Origin: Symbiodinium sp. CCMP2592
Lineage: Eukaryota; Sar; Dinophyceae; Suessiales; Symbiodiniaceae
DNA length: 64,000 nucleotides
Assembly: GCA_905221615.1 (NCBI GenBank)
Contig: CAJNDT010006132.1
Location: 1 to 64,000, forward strand
Reading direction: 5' to 3'
In this document: piece by piece, positions 10,710 through 50,600 of the stretch
Position numbering within the stretch: position 1 is the first letter of the stretch
How the letters are laid out: each line of letters begins with the position of its first letter
Notes under the pieces: model-generated
Database searches by the model: none
The model's input: the letters and a program-made list of their open reading frames with translations, nothing else
What the model was told of the DNA's origin: nothing
Translations under genes and position numbers: made by a program

Positions 10710-13700
10710 AAAGGGCTGTCGCTCGAGCTTGCTGGCGACGACCCGTGATCAAGACGAGTACCCACCTACCATTGATGAGACGCCAAAGTTCGTGGCCAAC
10801 CACGACGTGGGGACCACACCGATTCAGCATTACGTCAGAAGACTGGTGACCTACTTGGCAAGGATTCGTTCCGTCTCTCAAAGTGACGACAAGGGTCTCA
10901 ACCTGAAGGTCTACGTGAAGCTGAGCACGAAGATGTGGTTACGGATGTATTCGCGGCTGTACCATGCATTGGCATTGGTGTCGTGCGTGCATCTTCCTTC
11001 TCCTCCAATGCTTACCTCGGCAGTGATGATCGAGGCAGACAACGATCTTGTCGACAACGATGAAATTCCGGCAGAAGCAAGGATCAACACCATGAACACG
11101 CTGAACGGATTTCGCAATAGTTTGGGTATGGGTGGCAAGCCTGATGCCGCGACTATGCGCTCTCAATGCACAATCCTCGTCCAAGACTTTGACATGGTCG
11201 CAAGGACCAGAGGATCATCGCATACAGTGAGAGAAAATCTCGTCATGCATGGATGGAGTGAGATCTACATTGTGAGCCCGTCGATCACCGCAGGTGCCAA
11301 CTACAACTTCCAAGTCACAAAGGGATCGTTGGAATCTGTGAATGAGACATTGGATGGCTTGACTGAAGAGCAGCTTGCAACCGTCACGTTGCATTACCAT
11401 CTGTCTCTCCAGGCGATCCTCATCGAGAACATATCATTTCCGATGAGTGAGGTCGGAGACGGAGCAGCGATTCGTGCTGACTTGCAGCGACAGCTCAAGG
11501 TCACGTACGTTGACCCTATCATTGCGGCAGGGAAGCGTACCACGCGCCCTCCAATTGTCAACATCAATCATGACTTACGGTTCGTAGGAGCAGCCAGCAA
11601 TTACCTTCGACAGAAAGCTTCTATGTTCAACGGCTTCCACGCGCTGGGAATGTATATTGAACTGGAGTTGCGGGCCCGAGCATGCGTGGTGATTCATGGA
11701 TCTTCGTTTTGGTCAAGAATGTACAGCCAGGCGAAACATGCGTCGTCAGGCGTGCATACACTGTCAGCCGAAAAGGTGCCAGCACCGGACAATCGGGTCA
11801 GGTTCAAATTGGGCTTCGCTATCTACGAGAAGCAGCTGTTCTGCGAGAAGATGGTATCCACGTGCTTTGTTGAGGCATCGAAAGTTCGCTCATGGGACGA
11901 AACTGTCCGAACCGACTCAGTCGCTCACCCGTCGCTTGTCGAGATTTGGGAGGACAAGAGTGAAGTCAAGACGTCCACCAAGATTTCGCAGACATGGTTT
12001 ACGGGAGAACAGCAGCAACAGATCAGGTCGGGTGCCCAGGGTGACACGGTCGCTGAATCGTCCACAGTCACCTGGCAGGATTTTGACATCGCCATGACCG
12101 TTCCCGAAGCCTACTACGACAACAGGCACTACTGGTTCAGGATCGACACCTATGCGACCCTGAACACTGGTTATGTCAAAGGGAGAACGTTCTATTGCCC
12201 TGGATGTGAAGCAATGAAGTTGGCTGAGTGCTACGCACAAGCCTTCTTCAAGCCGACCGGAAACGGGTATCCTGGACACTGCATTGGGTGCGCGCATACT
12301 TCAGCCTTGAAGATGCAGCATCAAATCAGCTCCTTCAATGACTTGATCACGTCCCAGAAGTACACCTTGGCTTGCGCAAAGCACCTTTATGACCTGAGGC
12401 TTCAATTCGTGGATCCTCGCGTGGACATCAAGGAGTTCCTCAAAGTTTGTGCAGAGATGGTCTATGAAGACATCGGCAAGACGGTTTCTCACTACGGTGG
12501 TCTCCGAATCACAGCCAGTCAGGCCATCGAGTACGCGGCATGGGGAAAGGCCAAACAGTTGGCGTGGGACAGAGGGTACGACTCCGAAGGCAAGACATGC
12601 TACATCTGCTACTACGATGCCGGGAACTGCGCTTATGCTGGTTTCATGAGGATGCTTTTGACTCCAGAAGAGCGCCAAGAATGCTACAGAGGGTCAGTCT
12701 TGCCCAAGGAAGAGCTCCTGGGTGACACAGTGGAGCTGGCGCTCGGGCTTCTTACAATTGCAATGAGACACCCAAGTCATTTTCCGAATTGGGGTGGCCT
12801 TGAGGGAGCAAATGCGTGCGCGAGAGGAATCGAAAGATCATTCTTCCGCTACGCGTCGGCCGAAGCTATCGAGCTGATCACGGTTGACTCCCCGCGCAAA
12901 AGGACACCGCCCAAGAAGAATGAAGCAGTCGCTGAGATCGTCAACAACATGTCCGCTGACCTCGTGATTGATTTCACAGTGATCGTCGATGGTGATATCT
13001 ACCCTGTAGAGATTGCGAGAACCGACGAGACACAGGCCGCTGACAACGTCACGGACGATCCAGGGTTCTCAGTTGCTCCACCAATACCTGCACAGGATGT
13101 AGATGTGGATGCGCAACCCGAAGAAGAACAAGGTGCAGAAGGCCCTGATCCCAGGCATGCAATTCGTGAAGGATTTGTCGCGCAGCTTCAGGACTATGTG
13201 GGCGTACTCGCTCAGGGCGAAATGTCAGTCGGAAGCGACCGCATCACGTTCTGTGTCGCTTGTGGCAGTGATCTACACACTCTGTCCAATTGCACAGAAA
13301 ATGCTGCAACCCGGGATCTGGTACTTCGAGGCGTCCAGATTATCAAGGAAAGTCTTCTTCGATATCCACGTCGAGTACCTACACAAGAGGCTGAGCCAAT
13401 GGACGTTGACACCACAGATCATGTGAGTGTTGCATCCTCGGACCGACGACCCAAGGCCAAAGCCCGACCGCGACGCGGAGGCGAAGCCGTACGGGGTGAT
13501 GTGGTCTTGATCCGTTATGAGAACAAACACAATCTCTGCACGGATGTGGAGAATCGTCGGGGCCTAAATGATGCTTGTGGCGTACCACTGCAGGAATCGG
13601 GACCAGAGAATAGCCAGCGAGTGGTGGACATCATTGAGCAGCTTTCGGACCATCGCGACCGACGCCTACCTCAACGAGGAGACCGTCCTAGCTTTGCTTA

Positions 13701-22654: not shown

Positions 22655-24346
22655 ATGGAAAACTTGGAGCCGCCTATCCCCGACACTGGAGGTAGCAGCG
22701 GTAGCGACGTCGAGGACCCAACCGCTGCTGATCGGGGGACAATACCCGTCGGTCGGAGGAGAAACCAGCCCTTTATCGGCACGTGCATCGGGCACGATGT
22801 CAGCTGGCGAGGATCTCAGGTCATCCGGGTCGTCACGCTCCAAGCGGGCGGCATCGGTGGAGCAGATCGCGAGGCATGGGGCCGTTGGTGGGCAGATTGC
22901 GCCGCGGAACTGGGAGCAGATGTTTTTGTGTTAGCCGAAACACGAATTGGTACCACAAGGGGGCACACTCTGGCTGTGACCGGTATGGATAAGGGTGGAT
23001 ACGTCGGTATTAGTCACAATGTGGACCCAATGACTCCCACCCCATCGCAGACCCCTTCGCCAATGTCATCGGGTATCATCATAGCAGTCCGCAAGGACTA
23101 CGTAGGGAACTGGCAGCAAGTCGCCAGAGATTCGGACGGGCGTGCTCTGGCTGGCACACTCTTGAAGGACGATGGAGCTGCAATCCGGGTGGTAGGGGTA
23201 TATGGCCCCACTGGTGCAACCTCCGCCTCCTTCGACCACGATGCTCGGGCACTCTCGCAGGAACAGAGATTGGTCGAGTTTGTCTCCGACCAAAAGGCAA
23301 AAGCACTACTTACGGATTCTTCGTTGCTGGTTGCAGGGGACCTGAACAGCTACTCTTCCCCGGACTTGGACTGCTGGGAAGGTCCCGCCACCGCCAGACC
23401 CGCGTGCCTCGCGCTTCGGTTACAGGAGATGGGTTTGCACGACTGTTTCAGGGAACTCCACTCACAACTGAAGGCTTATACGTTTTTCACTCGACAGGGA
23501 ACCGCTAGCCGACTGGATCAGATTTGGTACTTGGGTGGCATTGGGGGAACTAGTCAAGTGCTAAATGCAGCGGTGGTTTGGAGATGGCAACGGCGTACTG
23601 ATCATGACCCTGTTGTGGTTGACTTCCGCCACTCCCTCCCAACAACGGCTGCCCCACCGGTTTCCGCCGACGAAGTGAATTGGCGTCGGGTTGTGCAGGC
23701 CAGTATGAACGCTGTGGAGGCTGATGAGCTCCGGGCTCAGATCCGGGATGCCCTAGACCCCGCGCGCCATTCACTGGAGGAAGCCATTACTAATGTCCGC
23801 CAGCAAACTGCTGAGCTGCTCAATACACCGTCGCCCTTGGCTACGGTGCTCGAACCTGGTGGTGTACCTGATCGACGGGACCTCAACTTGAGGGAGGCCA
23901 TTGAAAGGGCCACCTCCATCTTCCACTCTTCTGTAGCCGCAAGTCTCCCCCGACACTCGGCCAATCAGGACTTTGCACTATCTAGGGTGAAGGCCTCGTG
24001 GGAGGAGTGTATCCATCAGCTCCGGAGTTTGAAACATTGCTGCTGCATGTTAGCGATACCGACCAGGCATTTAAGCAGATTTCGGATCAGCATGTGGTGG
24101 TTCAGAAACTCTGAGAGAGAAGTGCGGACTTCACCCGCAAAATCGTATGGGGTACGGAACGATCAGAGGACAGCTTCTCCATCGAGGATTGGGACGGATT
24201 CCGTTCAGACCCGAAGGCGTGGGCCAGGTCACTTATTGGTGTATCGGAGCAAGCCATCCAACTTTGGGAACCTGCTACACAAACAGTCGAAACCGAGCCA
24301 ACAGGTAACTTTCTTCAACCACTGGAATGGCAGTCCCCGGCGGTGA
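22655..24346 (+). pseudogene. LINE-A, endonuclease part
   Basis: Opens with an ATG 116 bases after the insertion border. Residues about 55-320 form an endonuclease/exonuclease/phosphatase domain as in non-LTR retrotransposons: LAETRIG with Glu95, VVGVYGPTG, VAGDLNSY, SRLDQIWY and TDHDPVVVDF carry the acidic and His positions. This enzyme nicks target DNA to prime reverse transcription. Coherent sequence leaves this frame near 24030; the remainder to 24346 is out of frame, and the protein resumes in frame 1 from about 24119. A stop also lies in the connecting stretch, so the element is broken here. Confidence 0.8.
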
Positions 24347-27300
24347 ACCGTCGAGCGAGATTGGAGGGCGCTTCACTGGTGAACTCGTGGATTTCCGCTG
24401 CCAGGAACTATCAGGCCAGATGTCAGCGACGTGCTGCTCGGGACGGTGGCAAATCTAGGAAAGCGGCACTCCGCAGGCTGGACTTTAAGACTTGGGCTAG
24501 AATGCTCCGACCCCTTATCGGCCCGACCTCCAGGTACTCTCCCGAGTGGGTAGTGGATAGTCAGGGACGCCGGCGCCCGCCCGCCAATGCGCAGGACGCG
24601 TTGCAGGGAGCAGCTCAGGAATGGGAACGGCTCTTTCATACCCCCTCCATCCCATGGCAGCACCCCGCGTTTCTCTGCTGGTCTGACAAACTCGGCAACC
24701 AACGAGGAGGCTTGAATTTCGAGCACCTAGCCAACATGCTGCACATGGGCGGCGAGGAGACTGTACCTTCTGCAATCCTGGAACCCGGGCCGTGGTGCAT
24801 CATACAATGGCAGCCACGCAGGGTGCAGTTCCCGTCTAACAACAGTGTTTCATTTCCAGGCTGGGTTCTGTCGTGGATGGGCGCATCCCTTGGATGGCTG
24901 GCCCGTCGCCCTGGACCGTGCTCGGGACCAGTACTGCAGGTACTCTGCTTCGGAAGGGCGCCAGCCAACGAATGGACTATGGACCACTTCTGCCACATGG
25001 ATGACATGAACGCGTCGTCCTATGGCGTCGCTTTGCGTCCACACTCCTTCCCGGACCACTCCGCCTTATGCCGCCTGGAACCAGACCAGCGTGAGAAATG
25101 GATTCAGAAGATGCGTTGGTCGAGGCCTGGCCGGTCGGGTTTTAAATTGGCCTACTTGCCACTCCTCCCCACCTGGTGTCAGGAACTCTTTTGGGAACTG
25201 ACGGACATACAACGCGAAACGGCATTGATTGCACCCAGCAACAAAAAGGCCATCCAGATCAATCTCCCAAAAAGCTCTGGCGGATTTCGGCCGCTCAGCA
25301 TGATGGAAGAAGCGTTCAAAGTCATTGAAGGCCCTGTCACGCAGCGCGTTGCGAACTCCAGGAGCCGCCTAGAGCTTGGAGCCATGTACAGCAAAACAAA
25401 CCTCGCCTATGAGAAGAAACAAGCTGCCACCGCGGAAGTTCTATACACTGATTGCATCTTGTGTGAGATTGCGTGCCGAACTGGGGCACCGTTTGCCCGT
25501 GTTCCCTCTGACTACGAGAAATATTTCAATTCCATCCTGTACGCGGAGGTAGATGCCATGCAACTCGCTCGTGGTATACCAGACATGGTGCGCCGTTTCT
25601 ACGATTTCTGTAGCCGTAGACACTCGTTGGGGACTCACCCGTGACGTGGCCTACCAGCGAGGGGTACCACAGGGAACAATTTCTTCACCCGAGCTATCCA
25701 AACCAGCACAGGAACCCATCTTGCGTTTGCGAGAGATGAGCCCAGCCAGATTCGTCACGGATCAAGGAATCGAAGTGGCCGTCACTGCATATGCCGACGA
25801 TGCCGAGCATTATGTAGGAGGTATTCGACAACTGCCACAACTTGTGGATGAACTGGGTAAGGGTAGTATGCTTGCCGCTGTAGGCTATGCTTGGTCAAAA
25901 TTTTCGGCCTATGCTTCGGACTGGGACTCGGTACTTGGTACAGAATGGGCAGCACACCATGGGATCTCACAGGATGGCATACAGGTTACTGGATACGACA
26001 TCTGGACGGGCGGTACGGTCACCACCACCCTTCCCCGCTCCCACGCCGGCTCTATTGAGAAACTTCTTGGTAAACGTGGAACCATCAGTAACAAACATGA
26101 CATTGCGGCACAGGATCTACTCGACAAACTTGGACAACTGCGGCAGAGGTTGACCTTTAGGCACTGCGATTGGGACGAGATTGCCGCGGCCTTCCAGCTT
26201 ATCGGCCGAGGCTATATCTCTTACGCACCCCTGGTAGGCATCCCTTCTCCGAAGAGCTTACACCTGCAAGATGCTGACCTTCAACTCCTGATTCTAAAGA
26301 GACTTCAGCTTCGATGCTCAGTGAAGAGGGTCAGCCTTCTGGCACCCCGTGAAGTAGGTGGCTTGCAGCTGACATCTTTGGTGGAGTCCATGGTTTCGGC
26401 TGTCGCTTCCGATCTGCTCTTGCTCCTAAATGGCATCACGCCCGCCTCGGAACTTGCCAGAGCGGAACTACGCAGGGCCATGCAACTAGACCCGGACGTA
26501 GCTTCTACCCATCAAGGTATTGTTTGTAGGGCTATGTCCTTTCTCGCAGGTTACGGTTTCTATTTGACGGTATCCACCGAACGACTCCTCTTTCGCCACT
26601 TGGACCACCTCAAGAAGCTTCACGGTTCATCGCACGCCCAGCTCGCTGGTCCTGCAGATGAGTGGTCCCACCAACAGGGGGCCCAGTACTGCAGAGTTGG
26701 CCGCTTCGCCAACTCCCTACGTCGTGCTTTGGTTTCAATCCGACATACGGTTGACAGACAGGGCTGGGACTCTATCCAAGCTTGGCAACAACATCTGGAG
26801 CCCTTGTCTGGCCTCTCGCCCGCTGATTGCGCGGCGGCCATGCGGCAAGCTGTCAATGCTTCCAATTCTGACTGGGAGGTGGAGTGTCGGTTATTTCACA
26901 GGCCGCACCCCAATGCTGCCGCGGACGAGGATTGGGCGGAGGAATCTTGGACCAAACCTTGGGTTTCTAGAGTGGACTCGCGCAGCGCATTCCTAGACGC
27001 ACAAGCAGATTTGCCCTACGATGATCTAGACTTCGGTATGTACAGTGATGGGGGTATGCTCAGCGCAGGCAGCTGCACTTTCAGCAGTCAGGCTCGCTCC
27101 TTCGGTGGGGCGGGAGACTACTGGGACTCTAGCCTCGCTTGCACTGCTCGCCTAACTAGTCGTCTCCCTCTCAGGCTAGGGCACGAAACCGTGGGTGTCC
27201 ACGAGGCCGAAATGGCCGCCATGCTCACTGCTCTCCGTTGGCGACGGTCAAACAGCTGGAATCTTCTAGTCGTGGACCGCAGCTCACTATGCGATGCACT

Positions 27301-28006
27301 TCTGCAGACCAATCTTCAGCGTCCCGCTGCACTACTCAACCTCGCAAGTCAGTTCCTCGTGGGCAGACTGCATCGTATCCTGGAGGATTTGCGCTGCTCA
27401 TGGCCGGAGTTCGCAACCAAACCCTCCTGGAGACTCCAGCAAGAAGCCTTCCCTTCGATTTGGAACTGCAAACACCAAGGCAAGTGGATGTGCAGAACTA
27501 CTCACTGTACAGCAGGACTAGTTGCTGTGGACATCAAATCGCACCAAGAACACAGCAGCATCCCGCACCCTGTCATAACCAGTGGAAATGAACAGCAAGA
27601 CCAAGGTTGCGGATTAGCGCGCTGCCAGATGCGCCCGCCAGATGTTTGGTACCCCACTGGTGGTTTCTTTGCTTTTATGGTTACGGAGGGCAAAGCCATT
27701 GGGAGCACCATACGTAAAGTCGTACGTGCACAACTTCGTACTCAAGCTTCTGCACAATGGAAACAGCGCAAGGTTCAGGGACATGTAGCCAACCAGGCGC
27801 TCGAAGTCTTCGGCCCTACACTGGACATGAAGCTGTATACGCAGGTTCCGGTACCCTCGTCCTGGAAACATTGGATGCTCCCCACTGATCAGAGCGATGG
27901 CGTGGACTTGTCCAGATTCCTCTACCGGTGTATTCGCGCAGTGGGGGGCTCATGGACCGAAAGCCTCAAATCTGACACAGAACTGGCCCGGTTAGCGTTG
28001 CATTAG
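24119..28006 (+). pseudogene. LINE-A, reverse transcriptase and RNase H-like part
   Basis: Frame 1 from about 24119 to about 25600, then frame 2 to a TAG at 28004-28006. RT landmarks are GGFRPLSMM, DYEKYFNSI (in place of the usual D-x-x-KAFD), RGVPQGTISSP and AYADDAEHY with YADD at 25790-25801. A later block with FGMYSDGG (near 27033), HEAEMAAMLTALRW and VVDRSSLCDAL resembles an RNase H Asp-Glu-Asp arrangement. The RT is divergent in its first catalytic motif. The frame switch in the palm region and the terminal TAG show that this copy cannot make the full protein. Confidence 0.78.
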
Positions 28007-29519
28007 GCAGAGGTTAACCATCTTGACTCCATGCGAACATGCCCGTTGTGCCGTGTAAGTGCCGGCACTCCCCGCCACACGGTTATGACATGTGCTGGGA
28101 TGAGGCATCTAACCAATACTGCGAACAGACATGGAAGCGTTGTTGGGGCAACTGGCGGAACGAGAACAACTCTCGCAAGATGCATCGGTTTGGAGGCGGA
28201 CTTGCCACCAACAGGGACGAGCCCACTTGATCCCAGAGCCCTCCGTCCAGGACTCCAGCACGTGGCCTATCCTTGCCGCGTGGCGCTGGTTGGTAATTCT
28301 CCCGGGCCGTGAGGCCCAGCTGAGCCAAGATGTAGGCGGTCACAGCTCAGCAGCGGTGGTTCAGGAACGCGGATGGGACTTGGGACACCGAGCTGTTTTA
28401 CCAGTGGGTCTAGGCCATTCCCTTTCTCGCCTGCTCCCGGAACGGGTGCCAAACGACATTGAGGAATTCGCGGTCTGGAGACACACTGACCAAACCACGC
28501 GTGAGGCTGAACTGCAGCTACGCCGACACGATCGCATCAGACCTGCTGTGAAGTGTGTATCTCTCCTTCTCCTAGGCATACGGCGAATTCGAGTGGAATA
28601 CGCCCGCCGCATCCACGCCTGGAAACAGGTGCAGTTGACCATGGAGCAGTTGCGAATCCCGGTGGCACTCCAAGCCCCGCCTGATGTGGAAGATGGCAGA
28701 ATGCCCTCCATACTTGATGCATGGTTCGCGACACCGCGCGGCCTAACCACGGCCCGTGAGCTGCGCTGGTTGGTTCCAAGCCTTTCCGTCCTTGCCGCAC
28801 GCATTAAAGCAGAAGTACCAGCTTGTCGACTCTCATCTCACAGCATCAGGGTATGCGCCGCCTCTCATCGGGTCCCGATCGCAGTGCGTGGTCAACCAAA
28901 CTGGGTGGATAAATGGCCTTCCTTCCCAGACATGCAAATTTCGTTACGTTCCCCGTGCACCTGCCTTACTGCCCTGCCGGAATCCATCTCCTGCTGCTGG
29001 ACTTGTGGAGGCGTACAACTTCCTCCCGCAGTTCCCCCTCGAACGTGCCCTTTTTGCCACCGCAACAATGGCGGAAACCAATGTCGCAACTGCGGCTGCT
29101 GCCTTCACATCATGGGCCAGTGTACTTGGAACCGAGGGGCTAATCGCTGCTACCAGGCAGGCGCGCTGGACGCGATCAGCCTGTGTCCGGACTGTTGGGG
29201 GGTTTGGCGCGCGGCGCTTGAAGCATTACCGAGACGCCCGGCCCGACCGCCTTTGCCGCCTGGCCATCTCCTAACTCACTTGACGCAGTTGGGTCAACAA
29301 CGACATGCTGGTGCTGGCGCCAATACCTTCTTTGCTCGGACGGGCGACCGGCAACGGGTTCAGAGGTGGTGCCTGAGGGCCCTTCCCCCCGACTGGACTG
29401 CCTTCCCCGTCCTCTTGCAACAAGCAGAAAGGAGCCTTGTTGCGGTGGACAACGTCGCTGAGAGAGAGATGTCCTTGAACGACCGTGAGACACAGTCAGA
29501 AGTGAAACCATCGTCATGA
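28007..29519 (+). pseudogene. LINE-A, C-terminal zinc-knuckle part
   Basis: Immediately after the TAG the same frame continues with CPLCRVSAGTPRHTVMTC, a C-x2-C-x8-H-x4-C finger typical of the C-terminus of non-LTR retrotransposon proteins. Another frame change near 28131 leads to a long stretch ending at 29519, with a second Cys cluster (CCWTCGG, CPFCHRNNGG, CRNCGCC, about 28990-29130). The break structure matches the rest of LINE-A. Confidence 0.65.
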
Positions 29520-29559
29520 TCATAGTTTCAACTTGCCAAAGTATGCAAAACAAGGACCA

Positions 29560-29579
29560 ACACACACACACACACACAC
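29560..29579. repeat. (CA)n microsatellite between LINE-A and LINE-B
   Basis: About ten CA units. It lies 88 bases beyond the LINE-B ORF2 stop, so on the - strand it is a (TG)n tract where the 3' tail of LINE-B would be expected. Confidence 0.7.
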
Positions 29580-29666
29580 GCACGTACAAACAATGAAGGA
29601 GTAAGACTTTTAAATACAATATCATCAATGCCCCGCTCAGTCATAGAGTGGATCTGGGATCCACGT

Positions 29667-32600
29667 TCACATTTCACACGCCGACGCATCACGGCAGATG
29701 GTGGCAACAAACACGACATTTCGTAAGATGTCACGTGCAGTGTTTATGGCTGGGTCTGTGCTGAAGAGTGTTTCCAAGCTCAGCATGTTTGATCTCCGAG
29801 TTTGCTGTCGCCAGCGGCGGCGTTGTTGGGAATAGGCAACACAATCCAAGAGTGCATGAGACAGGGTGTCACGGCCATTGGCGCAAAACCGGCATGAGTG
29901 CAGTACCATGCCGTTGCGATGACGCGCAGACCGACCGTCCAAAAAGTCATGATGACCACACCGCGCTAGACCCCAGAATCTGGCAGCCGTGGGACAAGCA
30001 TGCCTGTAAACGACCCTGTGCAGTTGAGGTCGTCTCTGCCATCGAGCGTAGCACTCGAGGGAGTCAGTGCAGTGCAAAAGGTTTGAATAAAGCAAGTTGG
30101 AATGCCGAGATACGGCATTGCGTACATGACGCAACCAAGACTTCACAACCGTCTGGGGTGCACCGGTGACGATGCCCCAACTTGAGGGGGGAGCTACACC
30201 AATACGGGCAAGCTCCAGCAGCACAACATTTACCCAGGACGTCTGTTCAGCACAGGCGTCCCGGGCAATGCGGGCAGCGAGACAAGTGTAGGGCAGGGAC
30301 AACAAGCGTGCTAGCAGGCCAGCCGCCTGCAACAAGCGAGCCGATGACAAGTCTAGCCAACCTAACTGCCCCTGTGTCGCAGCAGTCGGTGCCCCTCGGG
30401 GCCACATCAGCAGGCGACGGCCCCATTGAAACATGCGTGCATTGACACGCTGTAACTGACGGGAATCGGGCACGAGTTCAAGGCCGAAGCAAACTGACGG
30501 TTGGACATATGCACGGAATAACTTTTCAAGAAAATGTACTGGCAAATGATCTGTGTGTGACGCTGTCCAAGAAAGGCATGCAGCCATCCGACGTTCACCA
30601 CGTGCTAGGACATGATCAATGTGAAGACGCCAATTCAAGCTATCATGAAAAACAACGCCAAGGTACGTGTACGTGCGTACCACGGGAACTAGCTGTCCAT
30701 TTACGTGGAAGTTCATGTCACGGCACCGGGAACGGCCCGGGCCGAAGCACATAACGGCTGTCTTGTGAGGGCCCACAGCAAAATTGAAACGCCATGAACG
30801 TGCCCAAGCAGTTGCTGCATCCAAGGCTTTTTGTAAGTCCGCGGGATCGTTGCACAAGATTGCAACATCATCCGCATACATTAGAACCAGAACGTTATTA
30901 CAGGCACGTTTGATTTTGGATGCAAGGCCGTTAACCAAGATGTTAAACAAGAACCCGCTTAAAACCGCACCTTGACCAATACCGTTTTCAATTTCCCAAG
31001 GGTCTGATGTGCATTCAGAAATGCGCACCGCGGCTGTTCGGTTGCAGACCAAGTCATCAATAAGATGCCACAGACCGCCCTGGACCCCTGCACGGTGAAG
31101 GCGCCACATGGCACCGTCACGCCACGCAACGTCAAAGGCTTTCCGTATGTCTAGGAAAGCGCAGTAGGTGCGGGTGTTTTGCCGCAAGCGCAGTGTTTCA
31201 AGGAGTGAATACGTTTGAATGTCGGACCCCCAACGAAATCCAGCCTGGCACTCGTCAAGGCACGGGTCGACCAAGGGGTGGATTCTATTCAACACTATCC
31301 TCTCCAAAATTTTTGCGAAGCAACAAGTTAAAGTAATCGGCCGATAACCGTCATGTTCATTGCTGCTTGCAGCCGCTTTGGGAAGAGGGATCACGACCCC
31401 ATGCTTCCACAGTGACGGGACAGCACAACACGCACGACAAAGTTCAAGGAATTGCAGGATTGCTTCCGTCCACCAAGACAGGTCAACACAGAATGCCTCG
31501 TATGGGATATTGTCAATGCCCGGTGCTTTGGATCTCGTGCACTGCTGGAGTGCATGACGGAGTTCAGATAAAGTGAAGGGGTGATCATTTTGCGTGGGAC
31601 CAATGCATCCGTTACGGAGGCGCTCAATGCGCCTGCGCACACGTGCATATCGCTGCTGGTTGAAAGCTGCCTGGTCAGGAAGAGCGGCTTGCCGAAAGTG
31701 GTCACGCCACTCATTCAAACAAGCATGTTGCTGCTCTTGTGTGGCATGGGGATCGGGGCATAAATTACGGGCTACACGAGCGGAGTTGCGGTGAAATCTG
31801 CGCCGCACGGCGCGTCCAGCATCGCGCGGGCGACGGGATGTGAGATGCTCAACGTCGGCTAACCATCTGGTCCAATACGAATGCTTTGCAGAACGAACAG
31901 TTCGGTGAAACTGGTTGCGGGCAGACTTGAAAGCGGCGTCTGTGGCCAGTGTGAAATCACGTCGACGCGCACGCCAAGCTGCATTGCGTGCAAGCAGGGC
32001 ATCTATGCAGCTGTCATTCCACCACTCCGGCTGCTGTTTGGTGGTCACGGGAAAATGATACAACGAGCTATCACCATCCCACACTGCGCGCAACAGCAGA
32101 TCGTACAGTTCGTCCAACTTCAACCGGGCGTCGACGGGGCAAATGTGCTGGGGGAGGTGCTGTAAAGCACCACGAACTTGCGCCATCCACTCTTGGATGT
32201 AGGCTTGTCTCTCTCGCAGCAAGAGGTGCCAATCACGGACGCGCGGAACTTTTTGAGGCTCAGGCAGCAAGGCAGGCAATTTTTGTTGCAGGGTGACCGT
32301 TAAGGCGAAGTGGTCACTACCCAGCAAAGGACAGCAGGCGGAGACATTTGGACATGAGCAGTGTTGACCATTGTGAACCTCGACTGATGTCACAGTGTTC
32401 GGGGTGGCAAAAATGAGGTCTAATGCTGCTCCATGGCGTTGGGTTGGGGCATTCACAGGGTTGCACAAGACTAAACCAAAAGCATTAAGCAATTGATTCA
32501 ATTGATGGATGTGTTCGATACAGGGACGATCTGCATCCCTTGGCCTACGGTTTTCAACAAGTTCTGGATACCAAACGTTGCTGTCACCTGCCATCAATAT

Positions 32601-33050
32601 GGGAATGCCAGGTAAAGCTTGAATGACTGCTTGGGTTGATGCAAACAGACGTTGCCAAAAGTCTACACGCACGAGCTCCGTGCAGCCTACATGCGGCGCA
32701 TAAAACGAGGCTACTGCCGTGCTGGATAACCCATCCGCTTGATTCAAGATGCGCCACTGGATGTCGGTTTGGTCTGGCACTGAAGCGATTGGCATGAGTA
32801 GGTGTTGCAAAATGTTGTGACAAAGGAAACCAACATCACGACCACGAGAACCATTAGGGCCATCAAAAACGAACGGCTGATCATTTGGAAGGTCTGTATT
32901 CGTGGGACAGAAAGGCTCTTGCAATAAAGCGATGTTGCAACGATGAGATGCCAGAAACTGCGTGAAGCCATGAAACGCACAATGCAGCCGCCCAGAAGTC
33001 GACCACAACCTGTTACAATTGAACACTGCTAGGCGATTGATTGGGCGCAT
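29667..33050 (-). CDS. LINE-B ORF2: endonuclease and reverse transcriptase, intact
   Basis: 1127 codons with no break. Residues about 5-255 form the endonuclease domain: Asn11, LLQEPF with Glu45, SFYAPHVG, MAGDSNVW, LDLIFAT and GSDHFALTV. RT follows with WKHGVVIPLPK, GYRPITL, QAGFRWGSD, CAFLDIRKAFDVAW, GIGQGAVLSG and MYADDVAIL (YADD at residue 725), then the thumb-like NGQLVPVVRTYTYLGV block. CRFCANGRDTLSHALLDC near the end is the C-x2-C-x8-H-x4-C finger. It would nick the target and prime cDNA on it. Start ATG lies 9 bases beyond the ORF1 stop, which suggests reinitiation or coupled translation. It could be an active copy. Confidence 0.93.
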   Translation of the reverse strand: MRPINRLAVFNCNRLWSTSGRLHCAFHGFTQFLASHRCNIALLQEPFCPTNTDLPNDQPFVFDGPNGSRGRDVGFLCHNILQHLLMPIASVPDQTDIQWRILNQADGLSSTAVASFYAPHVGCTELVRVDFWQRLFASTQAVIQALPGIPILMAGDSNVWYPELVENRRPRDADRPCIEHIHQLNQLLNAFGLVLCNPVNAPTQRHGAALDLIFATPNTVTSVEVHNGQHCSCPNVSACCPLLGSDHFALTVTLQQKLPALLPEPQKVPRVRDWHLLLRERQAYIQEWMAQVRGALQHLPQHICPVDARLKLDELYDLLLRAVWDGDSSLYHFPVTTKQQPEWWNDSCIDALLARNAAWRARRRDFTLATDAAFKSARNQFHRTVRSAKHSYWTRWLADVEHLTSRRPRDAGRAVRRRFHRNSARVARNLCPDPHATQEQQHACLNEWRDHFRQAALPDQAAFNQQRYARVRRRIERLRNGCIGPTQNDHPFTLSELRHALQQCTRSKAPGIDNIPYEAFCVDLSWWTEAILQFLELCRACCAVPSLWKHGVVIPLPKAAASSNEHDGYRPITLTCCFAKILERIVLNRIHPLVDPCLDECQAGFRWGSDIQTYSLLETLRLRQNTRTYCAFLDIRKAFDVAWRDGAMWRLHRAGVQGGLWHLIDDLVCNRTAAVRISECTSDPWEIENGIGQGAVLSGFLFNILVNGLASKIKRACNNVLVLMYADDVAILCNDPADLQKALDAATAWARSWRFNFAVGPHKTAVMCFGPGRSRCRDMNFHVNGQLVPVVRTYTYLGVVFHDSLNWRLHIDHVLARGERRMAACLSWTASHTDHLPVHFLEKLFRAYVQPSVCFGLELVPDSRQLQRVNARMFQWGRRLLMWPRGAPTAATQGQLGWLDLSSARLLQAAGLLARLLSLPYTCLAARIARDACAEQTSWVNVVLLELARIGVAPPSSWGIVTGAPQTVVKSWLRHVRNAVSRHSNLLYSNLLHCTDSLECYARWQRRPQLHRVVYRHACPTAARFWGLARCGHHDFLDGRSARHRNGMVLHSCRFCANGRDTLSHALLDCVAYSQQRRRWRQQTRRSNMLSLETLFSTDPAINTARDILRNVVFVATICRDASACEM

Positions 33051-33059
33051 CGGATCCGC

Positions 33060-36000
33060 CTACTGCCGAGCGCCCCGACCGTTTCCCGAGCGACGATGCA
33101 AAGGCGGTCTCGTGTCGTTAGACCGCGATTCAGCAACGCCAGCTGACAAGGTGCTGCCGGGCCGGCTTTGCCCAGGCTGGCCATGATGAGCATTTGCTCG
33201 AAGGGTCTGCTGACGGGAGGGGTTCCTGGGTGGCGGCGGTGGTGGCGGCGGCGGCGGGATGCGAGCGTAACTGGGGCGGGCTGGAAGATTGCGATGGTGG
33301 GAACAACGAGGGTTGGAGCAGCAAGCCCAACAGGCACCATCAAGGCATTGGCAAGGAGCTGGGTTTCCGCAACTTCGACACGACGCAGACGGCTCAACAC
33401 AATTGTGACGACGTCTGCCACGCACACGGGCAGAATGAGCCGGCAACGTTGTGGGCACAGGAGGGGGGGGAGGGAGATCCAAGGCCGGATGGGAAACGGA
33501 GCAAGGAGCAGGAGGGGGCGGGGGTGGAGGGGGAGGTGTGCGGGTAGCGGGTAACACACGGGAAGGTCTTGGCGGCGGTGTGGGCAAAGCGGCAGCGGGG
33601 GGGAATGCAGAGTGGGACAACTGGGTGTTGACGAGATGCAACAAATTCGTCAACGTGATTTCGAATTGCGACATTTGTGCACGAAGTTGGGCTATTTCAA
33701 TTGCCTGAGCATCAGTGGTGCTGGGACTGTGTCCTGGCGGCGGCTCAGCAGGCAGAACAGTGCAGCGTGCATCATTCGCACATGACTGACGTAGCTCGGC
33801 ACTCTCAGCTGCACATGCGCTGTCGGAGCGAGAACTGCAGGAATCCGAATCGGGATGCGAAACAGAGTCGAGGGGAGGCTGCGCATGCTGCAGAGCCGCC
33901 GTGGCAGACAACGTCTGCTCAGAGGTCCACGGCGCAAACACGGGCAGCAAATGTTGACCAGCGGCTTGGGCGTCACCATGAAAAGTAAGCGTGCGGTTTG
34001 CAGCATGAAATAACACCCCGCATAACAACTGCGGACGACGTCCGAATGCACTGTGACGACGATTGATACGGAGCCATGCTCCCCAGGCGGTTGTGCCTTC
34101 AATACGCACTTGTGGCACACCAATACTATTGAAACATCCCTCCGATACTAAGCGGTTGACTCGTTCAACGAACGATTCCAAGGACATGTCAAGAAAACGT
34201 GTGAACTGTGTGCGGCCATAGGTCAATGTGTTTGGCAAAACCGTCGGCTCGACGGTGGACTGTACACCAGGTGGCTCACTCGCACAGCGCTGGTGAGCGG
34301 CATTGGCGTGGGCAGACCGTCCGGAAGGACGGAAGCACTCAGCACACACTGTGAAACGGCAGTTTTGGCTGCAGTGAAAATATGCTGTTCGGTATGGTAT
34401 TTGGGCATTGCAGATCCTGCACCTACGTCGAGTTCCACAGGCTGCACTCATGCGTCGTGTGCAAGGGTGTTGGTGCAAATGGGTGGGGTACAGCTCATGG
34501 GGGCCGCTAGGAAGCCCAATGTTAGGATTGCCTATACGTGTTTCATTTGCCGCGCGATCCGGTGCCACAATACCGGATCCGGACACAGTGCCGGCTGGGT
34601 GCTCATGTGCCGCGTGTGATGTGCAGCGGAGCGTGTCAGCCGCATTGGGCGGAGCATCTGGCACCGCTGCTGCTGTACCAGTTGTACACTCGCCCGTCAA
34701 ATGTGGTAAAGATGCAGGCCAGCAATGCTCGGACCGGAAAATCGAAACCGCACGGTCTAAATCGGATGCTACCTGTATCCCGGCGTACATTTGCAAAAGC
34801 AAATCTTGTAGCAAACTGGGGACATGCCCGTTGCTAGATACCACAACCGGAACTACGCACCGCATTGCTAACCTAGTCTCTGTGGGGTATTGCGCTGCTA
34901 GGTGTCGGAGGTGAGCCACGGCTTGCATCTCGTCGTGATTGACCTCACCAGCAATTTCCAACAGTTCCGAATATGCTTGCACTAGGTGCGAAATTTCACA
35001 CGTTTGACGCGACAAATGCGTGCACAATGTCTGAAACCACGGTATGGTCCCGCACCATCTTTCGGCGGTGGCAGAGTGCAATAGACTTGAGGCATGCAAT
35101 AGGATGGGACAGTACACGAATGAGTTTGTTGCATCAAAATTGCGAGCTGGCGGCCCGTCAGCGGACAAAACTGTGACAGCATCCCGTCCTGCATCCGGGC
35201 ATGGGGCATGCGTCTGTTGCAGGTTGTTAATGTACTCGCCGGTGCAGCCAGGCAAGCAGAGCCACGTTCGCGAGTTGTGGGCAAGGTCAACAACAAGTGT
35301 GCGCGGACCATCAACGGGGCAACACATAGCTTCCGGGGGATCGGAAGGAGATGGCAACGTTAAGGGGTCCTCCTGCAAAATGGAACGGCCACACAGATTG
35401 CAAGACCACTCACCTTGCCACCCAACCTGAATTCGATGCCCTTGGGCGTTCACTTCGAAACGTCGTGTCGGAGCCCACTCTGCCTCACGTGCATGAAGTG
35501 GTGCATCAAATGCTGATAAACGGGCACAGCACAATACGAGAACACGCTCTGGCGCGGCTGGCATTCCAGCACAAAAATCGGGCTGCTCATCATCATGTAC
35601 TGGAAGTGGTTCCCACGTGTTTTGAATGGGGAACCCGGCTTGACGACAAGCGCTTGATAGTGCTTCGTCAGCAGCGGCTCCGGGCCAGGGCGCACGACAG
35701 TGCAGGCACTGGGGCCTTTCAGAACGAAGCCGGACCTGCACGGCACATCCTACATGCAGATGCACACCACAGCTGCACGGCCACCTCCATGGCACGTTGG
35801 ACGGTGGGGAGGTGCAACCAGAGATCACTTCAAGTTGGCATAGTGCGCAGCAGGGGTCATCCGGGCGGCTCGACGAAAACGTGTCTACAGCTGTGGTTGG
35901 TGTATGTTCTCGGGCAGTAATCTGCGAAATGGTCCCGGCCGGGGAGGCAAACTCGTAGTCCAAACACTGCATGGTCGGTGGCGTCATGAGTACACGTTGG

Positions 36001-36068
36001 GTTCGCTCAGGTGTGCAGCTGCGTCTCAGGCGCGGCATGGGAGGCGTACGTGACAGTGATCGTGGCAT
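33060..36068 (-). CDS. LINE-B ORF1: RING-like zinc finger and proline-rich protein, intact
   Basis: 1002 codons. Residues 73-124 have a RING-like arrangement (CCALC at 73-77, CSCGVHLHVGC at 98-108, CLHC at 121-124). Additional Cys/His clusters occur at SCNLCGRS (about 220), RCRICNAQI with CSQNC and CAECF (about 560-590), and CRSCGNPAPCQC with CWACCSNPRC (about 900). Two long proline runs lie in the last 170 residues, and the C-terminus is basic. ORF1 of LINEs usually binds the element RNA; a RING-type finger in this position is unusual and could bind protein or RNA rather than act as a ubiquitin ligase. The start is the first in-frame ATG after the 5' UTR. Confidence 0.85.
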   Translation of the reverse strand: MPRSLSRTPPMPRLRRSCTPERTQRVLMTPPTMQCLDYEFASPAGTISQITAREHTPTTAVDTFSSSRPDDPCCALCQLEVISGCTSPPSNVPWRWPCSCGVHLHVGCAVQVRLRSERPQCLHCRAPWPGAAADEALSSACRQAGFPIQNTWEPLPVHDDEQPDFCAGMPAAPERVLVLCCARLSAFDAPLHAREAEWAPTRRFEVNAQGHRIQVGWQGEWSCNLCGRSILQEDPLTLPSPSDPPEAMCCPVDGPRTLVVDLAHNSRTWLCLPGCTGEYINNLQQTHAPCPDAGRDAVTVLSADGPPARNFDATNSFVYCPILLHASSLLHSATAERWCGTIPWFQTLCTHLSRQTCEISHLVQAYSELLEIAGEVNHDEMQAVAHLRHLAAQYPTETRLAMRCVVPVVVSSNGHVPSLLQDLLLQMYAGIQVASDLDRAVSIFRSEHCWPASLPHLTGECTTGTAAAVPDAPPNAADTLRCTSHAAHEHPAGTVSGSGIVAPDRAANETRIGNPNIGLPSGPHELYPTHLHQHPCTRRMSAACGTRRRCRICNAQIPYRTAYFHCSQNCRFTVCAECFRPSGRSAHANAAHQRCASEPPGVQSTVEPTVLPNTLTYGRTQFTRFLDMSLESFVERVNRLVSEGCFNSIGVPQVRIEGTTAWGAWLRINRRHSAFGRRPQLLCGVLFHAANRTLTFHGDAQAAGQHLLPVFAPWTSEQTLSATAALQHAQPPLDSVSHPDSDSCSSRSDSACAAESAELRQSCANDARCTVLPAEPPPGHSPSTTDAQAIEIAQLRAQMSQFEITLTNLLHLVNTQLSHSAFPPAAALPTPPPRPSRVLPATRTPPPPPPPPPAPCSVSHPALDLPPPPPVPTTLPAHSARVRGRRRHNCVEPSASCRSCGNPAPCQCLDGACWACCSNPRCSHHRNLPARPSYARIPPPPPPPPPPRNPSRQQTLRANAHHGQPGQSRPGSTLSAGVAESRSNDTRPPLHRRSGNGRGARQ

Positions 36069-36345
36069 GAGCGGTTCCCGCCGCAGGTCGAGCAGTGAAA
36101 GTGCACCGTATTTATTATCCCGCTCGGTAGCGGAGCACGATCAAAGGCAATGGCTCACAACGTGGGGATTTCCACACTGGCGACGCTAGCCGCAAATACA
36201 GTAGTAGTGCCAAGTAAACAACGAACAATCCATTAGCTTTACCAGTTAGCAACCCTAACAAACAAACTGCCATGAACTGCACGTTATCGGACGACTGCTT
36301 ATTGACGGATGCCACTGAAGCTAGATTGAGCGTGGCTTGATTGGG

Positions 36346-36384
36346 CTTGAGCCAAAATGGCTCTTGAGCCAAAATGGCTACGGA
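36346..36384 (-). other. tandem dinoflagellate spliced-leader sequences (22-nt full plus 17-nt relict)
   Basis: On the - strand 36384-36363 is identical to the 22-nt dinoflagellate spliced leader (first base T), followed directly at 36362-36346 by a second copy lacking its first five bases (AGCCATTTTGGCTCAAG). Trans-spliced mRNAs of dinoflagellates carry this leader; a genomic copy shows that a mature mRNA was reverse transcribed. Two copies imply more than one round of trans-splicing and retroposition. Confidence 0.93.
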
Positions 36385-38643
36385 ACTCTTACAGACTGCA
36401 CTGCATCACTGGCATCGCCGCGGAGAAGCAGACACCCAGGTAGCATCAGGAGTTCTACACTTCAGACGGCGCCCACCCGTGTGACCACAACTGTAGGGCA
36501 CGTTGACACGAGCATGACGGCTGTTTCGAATCTCCATTGCGAAGCTTCAGAAAACACAAATGGCTCAGGTTCCCCGCGGGCACACGAGCCGTGGGCATCA
36601 TGCAGACTGGCATTCCGATCGACAGCATCCCGCAGCCTTTTCAACAGTCTGGGCATGGTCGAGTGACCATGGCTTTGCTTGCATTTTACGGAGACTTAAC
36701 CAGCTGCGCATCGTTCTGCCCCAAGTAAACCTGCCTCCCCCCTCAGCTGCACTTTGAGCTAGCAACACCAGTACTCCAACACACTTGGCATTCTGCATGG
36801 TCGTTGCAACCGCCTTGATGGTGGCCTGCGGCGACCGGGGAGGCCTCGGAGCGTCCAGGCATTCCATACACCGACAGAGGCAGCATGGGAGTATCTTTGA
36901 CGTGCCTTTTCATGTCCACTTTGCTTTCGGCCGTTTGTCTGAACGCCAGTCCGGCCTGAAAGCAATGAGCACCATAAACCAGTGCACCGACAATTCCTTC
37001 TTACGACATGTGCAGTCCTGAGGATTTGAGCTCGATGTCGCAGTTCAGTAACATATATCGGTAAAAGCAAGGTGGCGCTGACATACACGCTGACATAGGG
37101 AGCATCGCACCCCAACCCGGCGCAGGCTCTCTAGACCTGGCTACGCTCCGCCGGCTCGCTGAGCCAGTATTGATGCGGCAGGGGAGATGTCCTCGCGTAT
37201 CGACTCCCGTATAGACGGGGTTTATTCATTTGGCTTACGTGGGTTTCTTTTCTTGGTTCTTGCTTGAATTGTCCTGGTTCGACTGGACGGTTGTTTGTTG
37301 TAGTTCGGTATACGACGTTACCCCATTACACGGGAGGTGCCGAACACCTTTGTCTGTGGTCTTGAGCTCGGGGCTTTGTGCAGCTTTTGAGGCAACCTAG
37401 GCGCATTGTCCTTTTTCAAGCTTATGTGGGGCAACGAAATTGCCCCTAAACGGATCTCTGCTATACCGAGCTCAGCCGTTACGCAGAAATGAAGATTGCC
37501 TATGCACCCCTGGCATCATCTACTCCTGGGAGTGGGAAAGCTACTCTGAGTTGGAGTACGGTGCAGACCTGAAGGAGCACAGCTGTCGAGGATCGATTGA
37601 GTACCGCAAAAGCTTGATTGAGGTGTACTTGTGGGCATAAACGCTTTGTGTAAGAAACGCTACTGGAATCAGGGCATCCTCTCCAGCATAGTGCAGCTTG
37701 ATGCAGTCGCCTTCAATGATATGCTCACGTCGCCCTCCGGGGCTCTTGAAGATGTAGTCGTGATTGCGATCTTGCATGTCCGGTTGGGGCTGTGTTTTAC
37801 ATGAGTGCAGTTAGACGGAACCAGATGTTTCAACGGTGCAGGTACCACACATGTGCTGCTGCTCGTTGCTGGTTATTTGGGTGGGCAGTCGGCAAATTTG
37901 CATTGTTGAGACATCTGGTACCGCGTATATTTGTGTAGATCCACCGTGTGTGCAGACTCGTGAGTAGACTGGGCCTTGAACAACTCAGTGGGGCCTACGT
38001 ATTTCGCAGCACGGCACAGGTTTATTTAAATTTTTCAATCTTCAGTATACTTCCTTGCCCCGATTTCTCGGGGTAAGGCGGAGCTGGTTAGATATTGGCC
38101 TCACCACAACCAGCGCTGCCACGTTCTGACTCGCGCTGGTGCGGGCAATAACAGACCCAAATGACCCACCAGACCTTTGACCCTCCTTACTCGAGGTGCT
38201 GTTTTTGCTGGGCTCTAGGCTTGGTTCTTCGTTGGGGTTTTCGTCGAGAGATGAGGCATCTGGGTCACAGAAGTGGCCGTGACGCATATCAGCCACGTGC
38301 AAGTGCAGAAGCGCCTCTGTTTTCGGTGCACTTCTGTCTTGGGAATACATTTGCGTAGAGCGAGGAGAATGGCCACTGGCCATGTCATCACAACTTTGGA
38401 GGTCCTTCGCGTCCCTCGAAAACATGCCCGGATGAAGCTCCAGGGCTACGTTGGGATTTGTTTGCACTCTATGGTTATGGGAACTCTTCGTTCCCTTCAA
38501 TCAGATTCTGTTCTTATGCTTGCTGTGCTTGCCTGCCTGCCTTGCGCGGGGCCATGACGTTTTCGGAGCTCCGCGCCCCACTTACGTCTTAACCCCTCCA
38601 GGGGCGGAGACAACGTGGGTGCCCATTCCCTTGCCGGGGGATG

Positions 38644-47650: not shown

Positions 47651-50600
47651 CTGCATTTTGATCCCGAGGCGGTTGTCGACAACTGTAGCATGTGTCTGTA
47701 TGTCTTGCCGACGGACTGCAGGAAGTTGTGGCCACTTTGGTGACCTGTGGTGGCTTGTGCCCTGGTCTCAATGCAGCGCGGGTCCCAGGGCAGGTGTAGG
47801 AGCGCAATTCGTCTTGCAGCTCGGACCTGGCATGATCTGGCACTGCACGTAATCAAAGGTGCTAGAGAGTATGTTGCCAGGAAGTGCTGGAATATGTTGG
47901 AAGCCAGCACTCCCGCCAGGTTATACGTGAGTTGGTGATGATGCTCGCGCAGTACGGTGCCGTTGCCTCGACGTCAACTACGCTCCATCTTCGAAGATCG
48001 CCAAGCTAAGTTCAGCAGCCACTCCTTCCGAGCCTCCACATGATCAGGTCCGCAAGATTTATGGCATCCGTGGTGGCTACAAGGGGGTGTGGGCCCAATG
48101 CCATGCTTTGCGTAGCAGAGCAGCAAGCAGTCAGGCAGCCAGACGTGGAGTGTGTTGTTACGATCTAATTAGAGGAACGAGGAAGACCGCAGAAACTCAT
48201 CAATCGGGGGTTCAGGGTCAGGAGCACCGTTGAAGGAGAAGGTGCCTTGTGAGGCCTCTAGTGATATGCAGGTTGTAAAAAGTCGTCTCAAGATGCCTGA
48301 AGCTCACGAGGATTGTGATTACAATGATCAGACCCGCTAGGGCACCCGAATGCCACAAGAAAGCATCAGAAGGGCTGCGGGCTTAGCAGCCAAGGCCGAA
48401 TTCAAGTTCCTTTTCCTTCGTCTTGCAAGTCTTGACATGCGGAAACGGCAGCATGTAAGCCTGCCCTGGCGCAGAAGTAATCTGCATGCTCAGTTCATGC
48501 AAGTGTTCCAGTGAGCCATGGACGTATTAGATGCCTATACCGCAAGAAGGGGTCTCAAATGGGCATGTTGCAGTTTGGGCAGCTTCCGGCAAGCCAGCGC
48601 ATGAGTTGAAGGTGGTCAAGCCGGAGACGTGGATGGAGCTGACGCCAGATAATGTGCAGGCACCGTGTCGTCAGATTCAGATCATTGTGAGGATCACACA
48701 TCAGACAGTATCATGCCTTGACGATGATCTAACGCTGTATGCGAGTGCAAGTGTGTGCATGCGTGTACCGTCCTCGCACACCTGCGTAGAGGGTCACAAC
48801 TTTCATCCTTCGTTGAGCTGCTCCTAGCCGCAGTCACACAACGGCAGAGCCTGAGCGGTTCTTCGTTCATGAATCACAACACCAATGCTGGCATCGCTGG
48901 AGAACCAAACCACAGTGTCTGGAGGCTGCTGGTGTCAAAGACAAGCATGTACTTGGGATCTGTCTCCTGGAGCTTTGCTGCGAAAGCAAGGGATTCATTC
49001 ATGGGAGTTCCAGGTTCTTGGCTGGAGATGTCCGATCGCAGCTTTGCATCTCATGAACGATTTGCTTCTCAAAGACCAGGTTTGGGGTGAGACAAAAAAA
49101 ACACCAAATTTGCCATGTGGTTCAGGGCAGGTGGCAGCCATCAGATCTCAGGTTTCGGGTTTGAGGTAGACTTCAAGAGGCCTGGATGCAAAAGGTAGGC
49201 CTGACGCTTCGAGTGCCCGTGAGTGAGAGAGAGAGAGAGAGAGAGAGAGGCTGTTGCCTTTCCTTGTCCGAGTGCAAGCAAGAGAGAGAGAGGTGGCCTT
49301 TAGTTACAATGCGACAGCAAATCAGCTTTTGGTTTCAGCCTATCAAGTGTTGATGCAGGACATCAACAGCATGGGAGGGCCAGGATCTCAGCGACGTGAC
49401 ACAACGCATGAGCCCACTTACGTCAGCCGTCGATGATGCCAGCAATACGGCTGAGGACCATCCTTGTCAGTGACCGGGGTAACCCAACGGAAGAGGCCAC
49501 TTGACCTGCACGATAGCGGTAACAGGAAGTAAGTGCTACTGACTGGTTCTTAAGCATGTCCCGAAGATGTAGTCTCCCTACGTCTCCTTTCCTCCTGCCC
49601 AGGAACAAGTGCAGGTTCTGATGGACATGGGAGTCCGTGCCGCCCTTGTCTAGAGGGACAGGTCAGCTGTTTCCTTATAAGCATCGGTGCACGCTTGTTT
49701 TTATATCTGCGAGGTGCCCATTTCATCATCGGAGGTGATGGCACTCATCGTGGTGCCTTCGACGCTTGGCGTGCAGCAACGGAAGAGCGCCGCGGTGATC
49801 CAAACAGACGGTTGTTGAATGTTATTGAGGATTGTGCGGAGCTGGTGAAAGCCAAAGGCTGGAACTGCTCAGTTGCCTGGCAGCTTCAGCGACGGGCACG
49901 TGTTGCGACGGCTGACTTCAGCCTCCTGCAGCTGTTAAGGTCATCGGAATTCCGAAGACTATCGACAATGACATCCCCATGCTGGACTGCACGTTTGGTT
50001 CTTCAGCGGCCAGTAGAAGGCATAGTTGTAAGCCTGTAAGCAAGGAGAGCAGTTGGGGCGAGCATGAGCTCAGGTTTCGACACTGCCTGCATGGAAGCAG
50101 AACGAGCCATCAAAGCTGGATACGTGGAAGCGACTTGCAATGCCAACTGCATTGGCCTCGTCAAGCTGAGCCCTGACTGATCTGACTGCAGACTCCTCTT
50201 GCGGCCTTGCAGCTGACGATGCTTGGTTTGTACGTTGTCAGGATGGGCCGGCACTCCGGCTTCATTGCCTTGCATGCCTGCTTGGCAGCACGGAATGCAG
50301 ACATTGTATTACTCCCGGAGATGCAGATCTGTTGCTTGATCGGAACCGTCCGCTGCAGAAGTGATTGAAGGAAGTCTTGGAGAGCTAGAGCCGCCTTGCA
50401 GCCTAGGCTTGGAGAAGGTTTTGCAGCATTGCTTGGAGTTGATGCAGTGGCGGCACCAAGACACGTAGTGAAGTGGTGACTTGGCGGTGCAGAAATGCTT
50501 TGAAAATCTGAGGTCCAAGGGTCACTGCGTGATCGTGGTGGCCGAAGGCTGTGGGGACACCCTGCTCAAAAGTTCTGGGGAAGTTGATGGCCGCACTCTC

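Follow-up and report, generated by a model that had tools for sequence, protein, structure and literature searches.

LINE-B, a retrotransposon with two open reading frames (ORFs) located in a 64,000-nt stretch of the Symbiodinium sp. CCMP2592 genome (hereafter, the window), begins with a complete dinoflagellate spliced leader (DinoSL; SL) placed exactly at the boundary of its insertion. At LINE 5' ends, we observed one to four SL units, the order SL-flank-SL, and leaders that differ between copies at 0.5-1.5% divergence. Judging from the DNA, LINE-B is probably an autonomous non-LTR retrotransposon whose template is the host-processed, SL-trans-spliced mRNA, which would have been inserted repeatedly.

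A spliced-leader pair at the 5' end of LINE-B

The features of LINE-B and its 5' flank in the window are as follows (basis in brackets):

36363..36384, minus strand: complete 22-nt DinoSL (TCCGTAGCCATTTTGGCTCAAG), the 5' terminus of the inserted LINE-B (SL matching, insertion boundary)
36346..36362, minus strand: 17-nt truncated SL (AGCCATTTTGGCTCAAG), a relict that keeps its AG (SL matching, TRF)
36169..36345, minus strand: leader of 177 nt, specific to the window copy (comparison with C450, C2524 and C4457)
36069..36168, minus strand: 5' UTR shared among LINE-B copies (comparison of copies)
33060..36068, minus strand: LINE-B ORF1, 1002 aa (ORF, Pfam)
29667..33050, minus strand: LINE-B ORF2, 1127 aa, with RVT_1 (Pfam E 3.1e-30; LINE-1 ORF2p and R2 matches)
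29462..29666, minus strand: LINE-B 3' UTR and terminus ...GTTCAAGGACATCTCTCT(C), without poly(A) (copy comparison)
36385..37200: 5' flank of LINE-B, the older repeat LINE-A (itself on the plus strand), which resumes from 29461 downwards (L049-L052)

Read 5' to 3' on the minus strand, the sequence at the SL pair is GTCTGTAAGAGT-TCCGTAGCCATTTTGGCTCAAG-AGCCATTTTGGCTCAAG-CCCAATCAAG. The sequence-only reading of this DNA had described tandem SL copies, a full one of 22 nt followed by a truncated one of 17 nt, lying 277 bases before LINE-B ORF1. We confirmed the pair at 36384-36346 of the minus strand, where the truncated 17-mer (36362-36346) lies directly 3' of the full 22-mer (36384-36363), as well as the distance of 277 nt (36345-36069) between the relict and the ATG of ORF1. 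Shuffles of the window gave an expectation of 0.00 matches to the SL 21-mer with up to three mismatches. TRF identified the pair as an exact 17-nt tandem, and no further SL core with two or fewer mismatches was found in the window besides the LINE-B pair.

Relicts in the consulted passages of the literature are 15 nt long and cut after SL nt 7 (PMC3229502, PMC12014239). Unlike this form, the relict in the window has 17 nt because the AG is kept, and it thereby differs from the 15-nt product expected if the AG of the relict itself (SL nt 6-7) had been the acceptor of a second trans-splice. The 15-nt relict directly after an SL does occur in another LINE-B copy, L076. In starting with a complete SL, the inserted LINE-B of the window shares a feature of DinoSL retrogenes.

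LINE-B interrupts an older repeat

A DNA search of the genome with window positions 35000-37200 retrieved four copies (L049-L052) of the host repeat LINE-A that do not contain LINE-B and lead from 36383 straight to 29461 with 95-99% identity. Because these four copies are uninterrupted across the site, the LINE-B insertion starts at the SL, and the SL belongs to the element. The insertion comprises 6,923 nt (36384-29462) inside LINE-A, the older element on the plus strand, which LINE-B splits into 22655-29461 and 36385 to about 38700.

The uninterrupted LINE-A site reads GAGTTCAGCG, and the filled site reads GAGT-TCCGTAG... at one end and ...CATCTCTCTC-TCAGCG at the other. No more than 2 bp (TC) can be duplicated or common to both ends; a long target-site duplication at the window insertion was rejected, as none was found. 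Target-site duplications are usual, albeit not universal, for LINE or non-LTR retrotransposons. Judged from the filled sites, possible duplications are GG in L076 and GA in L077.

Proteins and noncoding regions of LINE-B

LINE-B ORF2 carries the RVT_1/LINE-type reverse transcriptase of LINE or non-LTR elements (RVT_1 at E 3.1e-30) and resembles the LINE-1 ORF2p and R2 chains. For an endonuclease, ORF2 had no Pfam match, APE-type motifs were seen by eye only, and a relative, P0008, is annotated with PF03372; a zinc-finger-like motif at the C-terminus was likewise recognized by eye only. ORF1 (33060-36068, minus strand) did not match Pfam up to E 5, and Cys/His-rich RING-like and ZZ-like motifs were noticed by eye. 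Two relatives of ORF1, L091 and L042, match zf-RING_2 weakly. In accordance with a non-LTR element, LINE-B has no LTRs (no repeats of at least 40 nt flank it), a defined 3' end and an otherwise intact insertion site. The terminus ...GTTCAAGGACATCTCTCT(C) was common to all four copies whose 3' end was read.

A 38-nt block of the 5' UTR (window 36136-36099, minus strand) is 97% identical to positions 1599-1636 of L080 (C4882), a LINE locus whose ORF1 is 47% identical to that of LINE-B. The block is a candidate promoter or other cis element. We rejected an internal promoter with secondary structure at the start of the body, as the structure was not beyond that of shuffles (z 0.33). Near the 5' end (35900-37000), no ribozyme or other Rfam RNA matched at E<=1, and no LINE-B relatives were confirmed in viral contigs.

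Elsewhere in the window, a 2087-aa ORF (10351-16614, plus strand) weakly matches the Tpt1/KptA RNA 2'-phosphotransferase (E 6e-5, below the cut-off). Two diverged direct repeats with 75% identity (50093-50167 and 56824-56898), 6.7 kb apart, are possibly a duplicated gene.

SL stacks differ between close copies

Two other copies, L076 (C450) and L077 (C2524), match the LINE-B body from 36168 on, with 1.48% and 1.40% substitutions relative to the window copy, respectively. Between each other, their bodies diverge by only 0.50% (32/6430), despite which their SL stacks and leader lengths differ. L076 starts with CCGTAG followed by four times CCATTTTGGCTCAAG, that is, four units with canonical 15-nt relicts. 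L077 has a truncated CCATTTTGGCTCAAG, which adjoins TTCGA, then 20 nt and then a complete SL, TCCGTAGCCATTTTGTCTCAAG, with one mismatch. The older copy L078 (C4998), 84-96% identical by piece, bears two degenerate SL units. Full-length ORF2 was found in neither L076 nor L077, where the longest ORFs have 625 and 725 aa.

Among the eight loci with the N-terminus of ORF1, an SL core with two or fewer mismatches is present in five: the window, L076, L077, L078 and a second LINE in L078, whose SL pair lies 820 nt upstream of its ORF. The divergent LINE in L080 has one SL with three mismatches, matched by 12 of 1000 shuffles. For the two old, degenerate ORF1-bearing loci L079 (C3334) and L081 (C256), no SL better than in shuffles was found (177/1000 and 998/1000 shuffles were as good as the best SL-like match). 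Thus, the concern that other copies would lack the SL does not apply to C450, C2524 and C4998, the three further loci having a LINE-B body with an identifiable 5' end, which carry two to four units; C3334 and C256 show no clear SL.

Leaders between the SL and the body

The leader from the SL to the body measures 177 nt in the window, 186 in L076, 262 in L077 and 138 in L078. The window leader is not homologous to those of L076 and L077, whereas the last part of the L077 leader matches the L076 leader. Position 36168, the start of the body, is the common joining point of these different leaders, and an AG in front of it is absent in all four copies. Moreover, the L076 leader starts 87 nt inside the L077 leader, where L077 has no AG. 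Lacking an AG at either place, these joins are unexplained by simple splicing; they may have been made by template switching or recombination.

One further occurrence of the leader's first 54 nt (53 identical) was found in the genome, in C4457, where it directly follows a genomic AG. No SL core with two or fewer mismatches adjoins this match, and two SL-like cores with three mismatches lie about 200-260 nt upstream of it. BLAST of the leaders against 37 viral-contig stretches with the SL 15-mer returned no match. In L082 (C4457:489000-498900), the minus strand bears a tandem SL pair, the first unit with two mismatches and the second exact, at about 2029-2058 of the reverse complement.

Spliced leaders across the genome

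In the whole genome (1.098 Gb, 5,383 contigs), we counted 429 exact SL 21-mers (217+212) as opposed to 0 for the reversed control pattern. Exact tandem SL pairs with a gap of 0-6 nt numbered 107; among 100 listed, 91 had no gap and nine were gapped, by AG twice and by G, TAG, ATAG, GTAG, CTTGG, ACGTAG and CCGTAG once each. The two AG-gap pairs among the 100 listed of the 107 are at C1802 and C4113; the window's own AG-gap pair is presumably among the seven unlisted ones, since its contig comes later in order. GTDB contigs contained no tandem SL.

We surveyed about 2.9 kb downstream of the first 26 of the 429 full-SL sites in contig order, a non-random sample in which the exact 21-mer criterion favours young insertions. 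LINE-type ORFs followed the SL at eight of the 26 sites, seven recognized by Pfam or BLAST and one by eye:

L084, L085, L088 and L041/L100: Pfam endonuclease matches at E 4e-6 to 2e-3, those of L085 and L100 falling short of the Pfam cut-off
L092: RVT_1, E 6e-10
L091 and L042/L101: LINE-B-type ORF1, E 1e-9 and 6e-5
L086: LINE-type by eye, weak reverse transcriptase match

The ORF1s of the four loci in the first line resemble one another. At five further sites (L098, L106, L107, L103 and L097), the SL is followed by a group that we call recombinase-like, a name resting on one weak PHROGs match (L107, phrog_1 integrase, E 0.0017), BLAST links for the other four, of which L097 is linked weakly, and motifs seen by eye. 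No Pfam integrase was found in this group, and a PDB sequence search with L107 gave nothing relevant. By eye only, L094 appeared recombinase-like and L108 to encode a copia-like protease. The other 11 sites were assigned no class from Pfam, BLAST or by eye.

As controls, we used 12 regions located about 50 kb away from 12 of the 26 SL sites. A BLAST panel matched 11/26 SL sites and 0/24 control strands (Fisher p 2e-4); the panel includes proteins from the SL sites, none of which was counted against the site it came from, and hence favours the SL set because family members within it help each other. The longest stop-free stretches were longer at SL sites than in controls (p 3e-5). Pfam endonuclease or reverse transcriptase matches at E<=0.05 occurred at 5/25 SL sites scanned (all but L090), three of them above Pfam's cut-off, versus 0/11 control regions scanned, where 20 of the 33 control stretches of at least 180 aa were covered and L112 had no such stretch. 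A first test of eight full-SL sites, with loci of +/-1.5 kb and an earlier protein panel, had given 0/8 matches; longer stretches at the same sites revealed LINE-type ORFs at 5/8.

Several observations concern individual SL sites. At eight of the 26 sites (L040, L041, L084, L087, L088, L090, L093 and L095), the SL lies within 30 nt downstream of CCCTAAA-like, telomere-type repeats, as compared with 20/2,328 control 30-mers, the pattern having been picked after viewing the flanks; two more of the 26 SLs sit in (AG)n. The recombinase-like ORFs of L098 and L106 are 99.7% identical on different contigs, with the SL joined to the same leader, and in L106 the first 16 nt of the leader are repeated just upstream of the SL, giving a short direct repeat around it. 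In L089 (C55:42308), the end of the full SL and the upstream flank constitute an inverted repeat (arms of 22 nt by eye) and no LINE-like ORF is present. The leaders following the SL in L083 and L092 look alike by eye; L092 has a reverse transcriptase near the SL, and L083 has none within 3 kb.

Alternative origins of the SL units

The SL pair might be flanking DNA, a retrogene relict or a fragment of an SL gene, beside which LINE-B was inserted by chance, and with 429 exact SLs in the genome such neighbours are available. However, the four LINE-A copies have no SL and break at its first bases, and the SLs of the other LINE-B copies sit in unrelated flanks at different loci. The flanking-DNA origin, which would have overturned the sequence-only reading, is refuted here unless all four LINE-A copies had lost the SL and LINE-B together, which we consider extremely improbable. 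Alternatively, trans-splicing could have provided a single SL, the second unit being a later 17-bp tandem duplication by slippage. The units in the window are indeed an exact 17-nt tandem, and their junction is not the canonical 15-nt one. Slippage of 15 nt between the two AGs of the SL would yield the same letters as canonical re-splicing, so that pure stacks such as L076 alone cannot discriminate between the two. The 20 unrelated nt between the truncated and the complete SL of L077, however, cannot arise by slippage; moreover, AG-gap pairs are also present at C1802 and C4113, and two copies with bodies as close as 0.5%, L076 and L077, have neither SL stack nor leader in common. We therefore regard slippage as unlikely.

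We give a similarly low probability to template switching, in which the LINE enzyme would have jumped to another SL-capped RNA, making the SL and the leader a piece of host mRNA. U6-L1 chimeras are a known product of such switching. The different leaders of the window and of L076/L077, joined to the body at 36168 without an AG, would be accounted for in this way, as would the presence of 54 nt of the window leader elsewhere in the genome. Template switching leaves the stacks of several units and the SL-flank-SL order unexplained, though, and still requires an SL-bearing RNA as template; in C4457, the position of the SL joint coincides exactly with an AG, which is what splicing predicts.

A model for repeated trans-splicing of LINE-B RNA

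We thus favour repeated trans-splicing of the element's own RNA. A resident LINE-B copy would be transcribed from upstream of its 5' end, and the host would join the 22-nt SL to an AG acceptor, a splicing event of which we see the products. An acceptor in the old SL (nt 6-7) would leave a 15-nt relict, as in C450, and an acceptor in the flanking DNA would leave flank between two SLs, as in C2524. Shortening of the leader by splicing inside it would be a possible but weaker route, the start of the C450 leader lacking an AG in C2524. The LINE enzyme would then reverse-transcribe the RNA to or near the end of the SL and insert the product, the SL becoming the first base of the copy, as is seen at the boundary of the window copy, and the next round would repeat these steps. 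As each round adds an SL, the SL units would record the rounds: L076 would have undergone at least four SL-adding rounds and L077 two.

For the window copy, the parent might have had an SL truncated near nt 8, as in C2524, beside a flanking AG. We give about an even chance to the next SL having been joined just upstream of this AG, which would create the 17-nt relict. About 70% of the DinoSL transcripts that were read start at two CC positions, 2 and 8, according to the portion of the source consulted (PMC7245778), which fits an SL truncation near nt 8.

On this model, the SL would renew the 5' end of the element and supply its cap. Whether a renewable 5' end is the function of SL acquisition, as the sequence-only reading had suggested, appears evenly balanced, although such a function would fit the leader differences. 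Its proposal that the element's own RNA is trans-spliced is well supported from the DNA for more than one cycle but not for each cycle. More broadly, retroelements of several unrelated classes, comprising at least two LINE groups as well as the recombinase-bearing type, could do without a 5' end that is fixed and their own: every transposition template would receive its 5' end from SL trans-splicing by the host, SL units would count generations, and flank capture or leader loss would turn over the 5' UTR. We put this generalization forward tentatively, leaning slightly against it.

Comparison with known systems

Dinoflagellate retrogenes, or recycled cDNAs, with DinoSL relicts were reportedly described by Slamovits and Keeling in 2008. 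That retroposed dinoflagellate genes carry such relicts, which the sequence-only reading took as known, is indeed in print (PMC12014239) and is cited in the passages seen of PMC3229502, PMC12014239 and PMC7245778. As in these retrogenes, an SL-capped mRNA would have been reverse-transcribed and inserted for LINE-B, with relicts stacked after a full SL and, in L076, relicts of 15 nt. The present case differs in that an autonomous LINE is the cargo, closely related copies have different leaders, the relict in the window has 17 nt, and the insertion boundary is set by uninterrupted copies of the target repeat. With an autonomous cargo, the enzyme is encoded by the tagged RNA itself, so that the cycle can be closed. 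The parts of the sources at hand also suggest the TTTT box of the SL as a portable promoter (PMC12014239), and they report DinoSLs in the vicinity of endogenous viral elements and suggest that LINEs were the agents (PMC10235124).

The trypanosomatid LINEs L1Tc/ingi likewise live in a host with SL trans-splicing. In the excerpts consulted, they have a conserved 5' promoter with ribozyme activity (Pr77) and unspliced transcripts (PMC8190864). Unlike such Pr77-type LINEs, LINE-B has no conserved leader, has no ribozyme or known RNA element among Rfam families near its 5' end and starts with the SL. SymbioLINE and SymbioDIRS are dinoflagellate LINE and DIRS-like retrotransposons, the LINEs having a separate ORF1, as described in the accessible part of the source (PMC5890265), whose text uses the term 'spliced leader' 0 times. 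LINE-B shares the separate ORF1 of SymbioLINE, albeit without its DNA-methylase match in Pfam.

New sequence is also joined occasionally to LINE 5' ends in L1 5' chimeras and 5' transductions. LINE-B resembles these in receiving new sequence at its 5' end but differs in that the addition is the host SL and occurs repeatedly. In the portions of the open-access literature consulted, we came across no dinoflagellate LINE described as having an SL for its 5' end.

Implications

On this reading, autonomous LINEs would depend in their life cycle on SL trans-splicing by the host, a possible route by which a LINE lacking a conserved 5' leader could retain its cap and 5' end. Autonomous LINEs also probably supply the enzyme with which dinoflagellates recycle mRNA. 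The SL units would provide a trace of transposition rounds that can be read from DNA, copy by copy. They also carry a warning, as genomic DinoSL counts may include many retroelements: if several classes indeed have no fixed 5' end, many of the 'DinoSL relict' sites in retrogene counts would mark retroelements.
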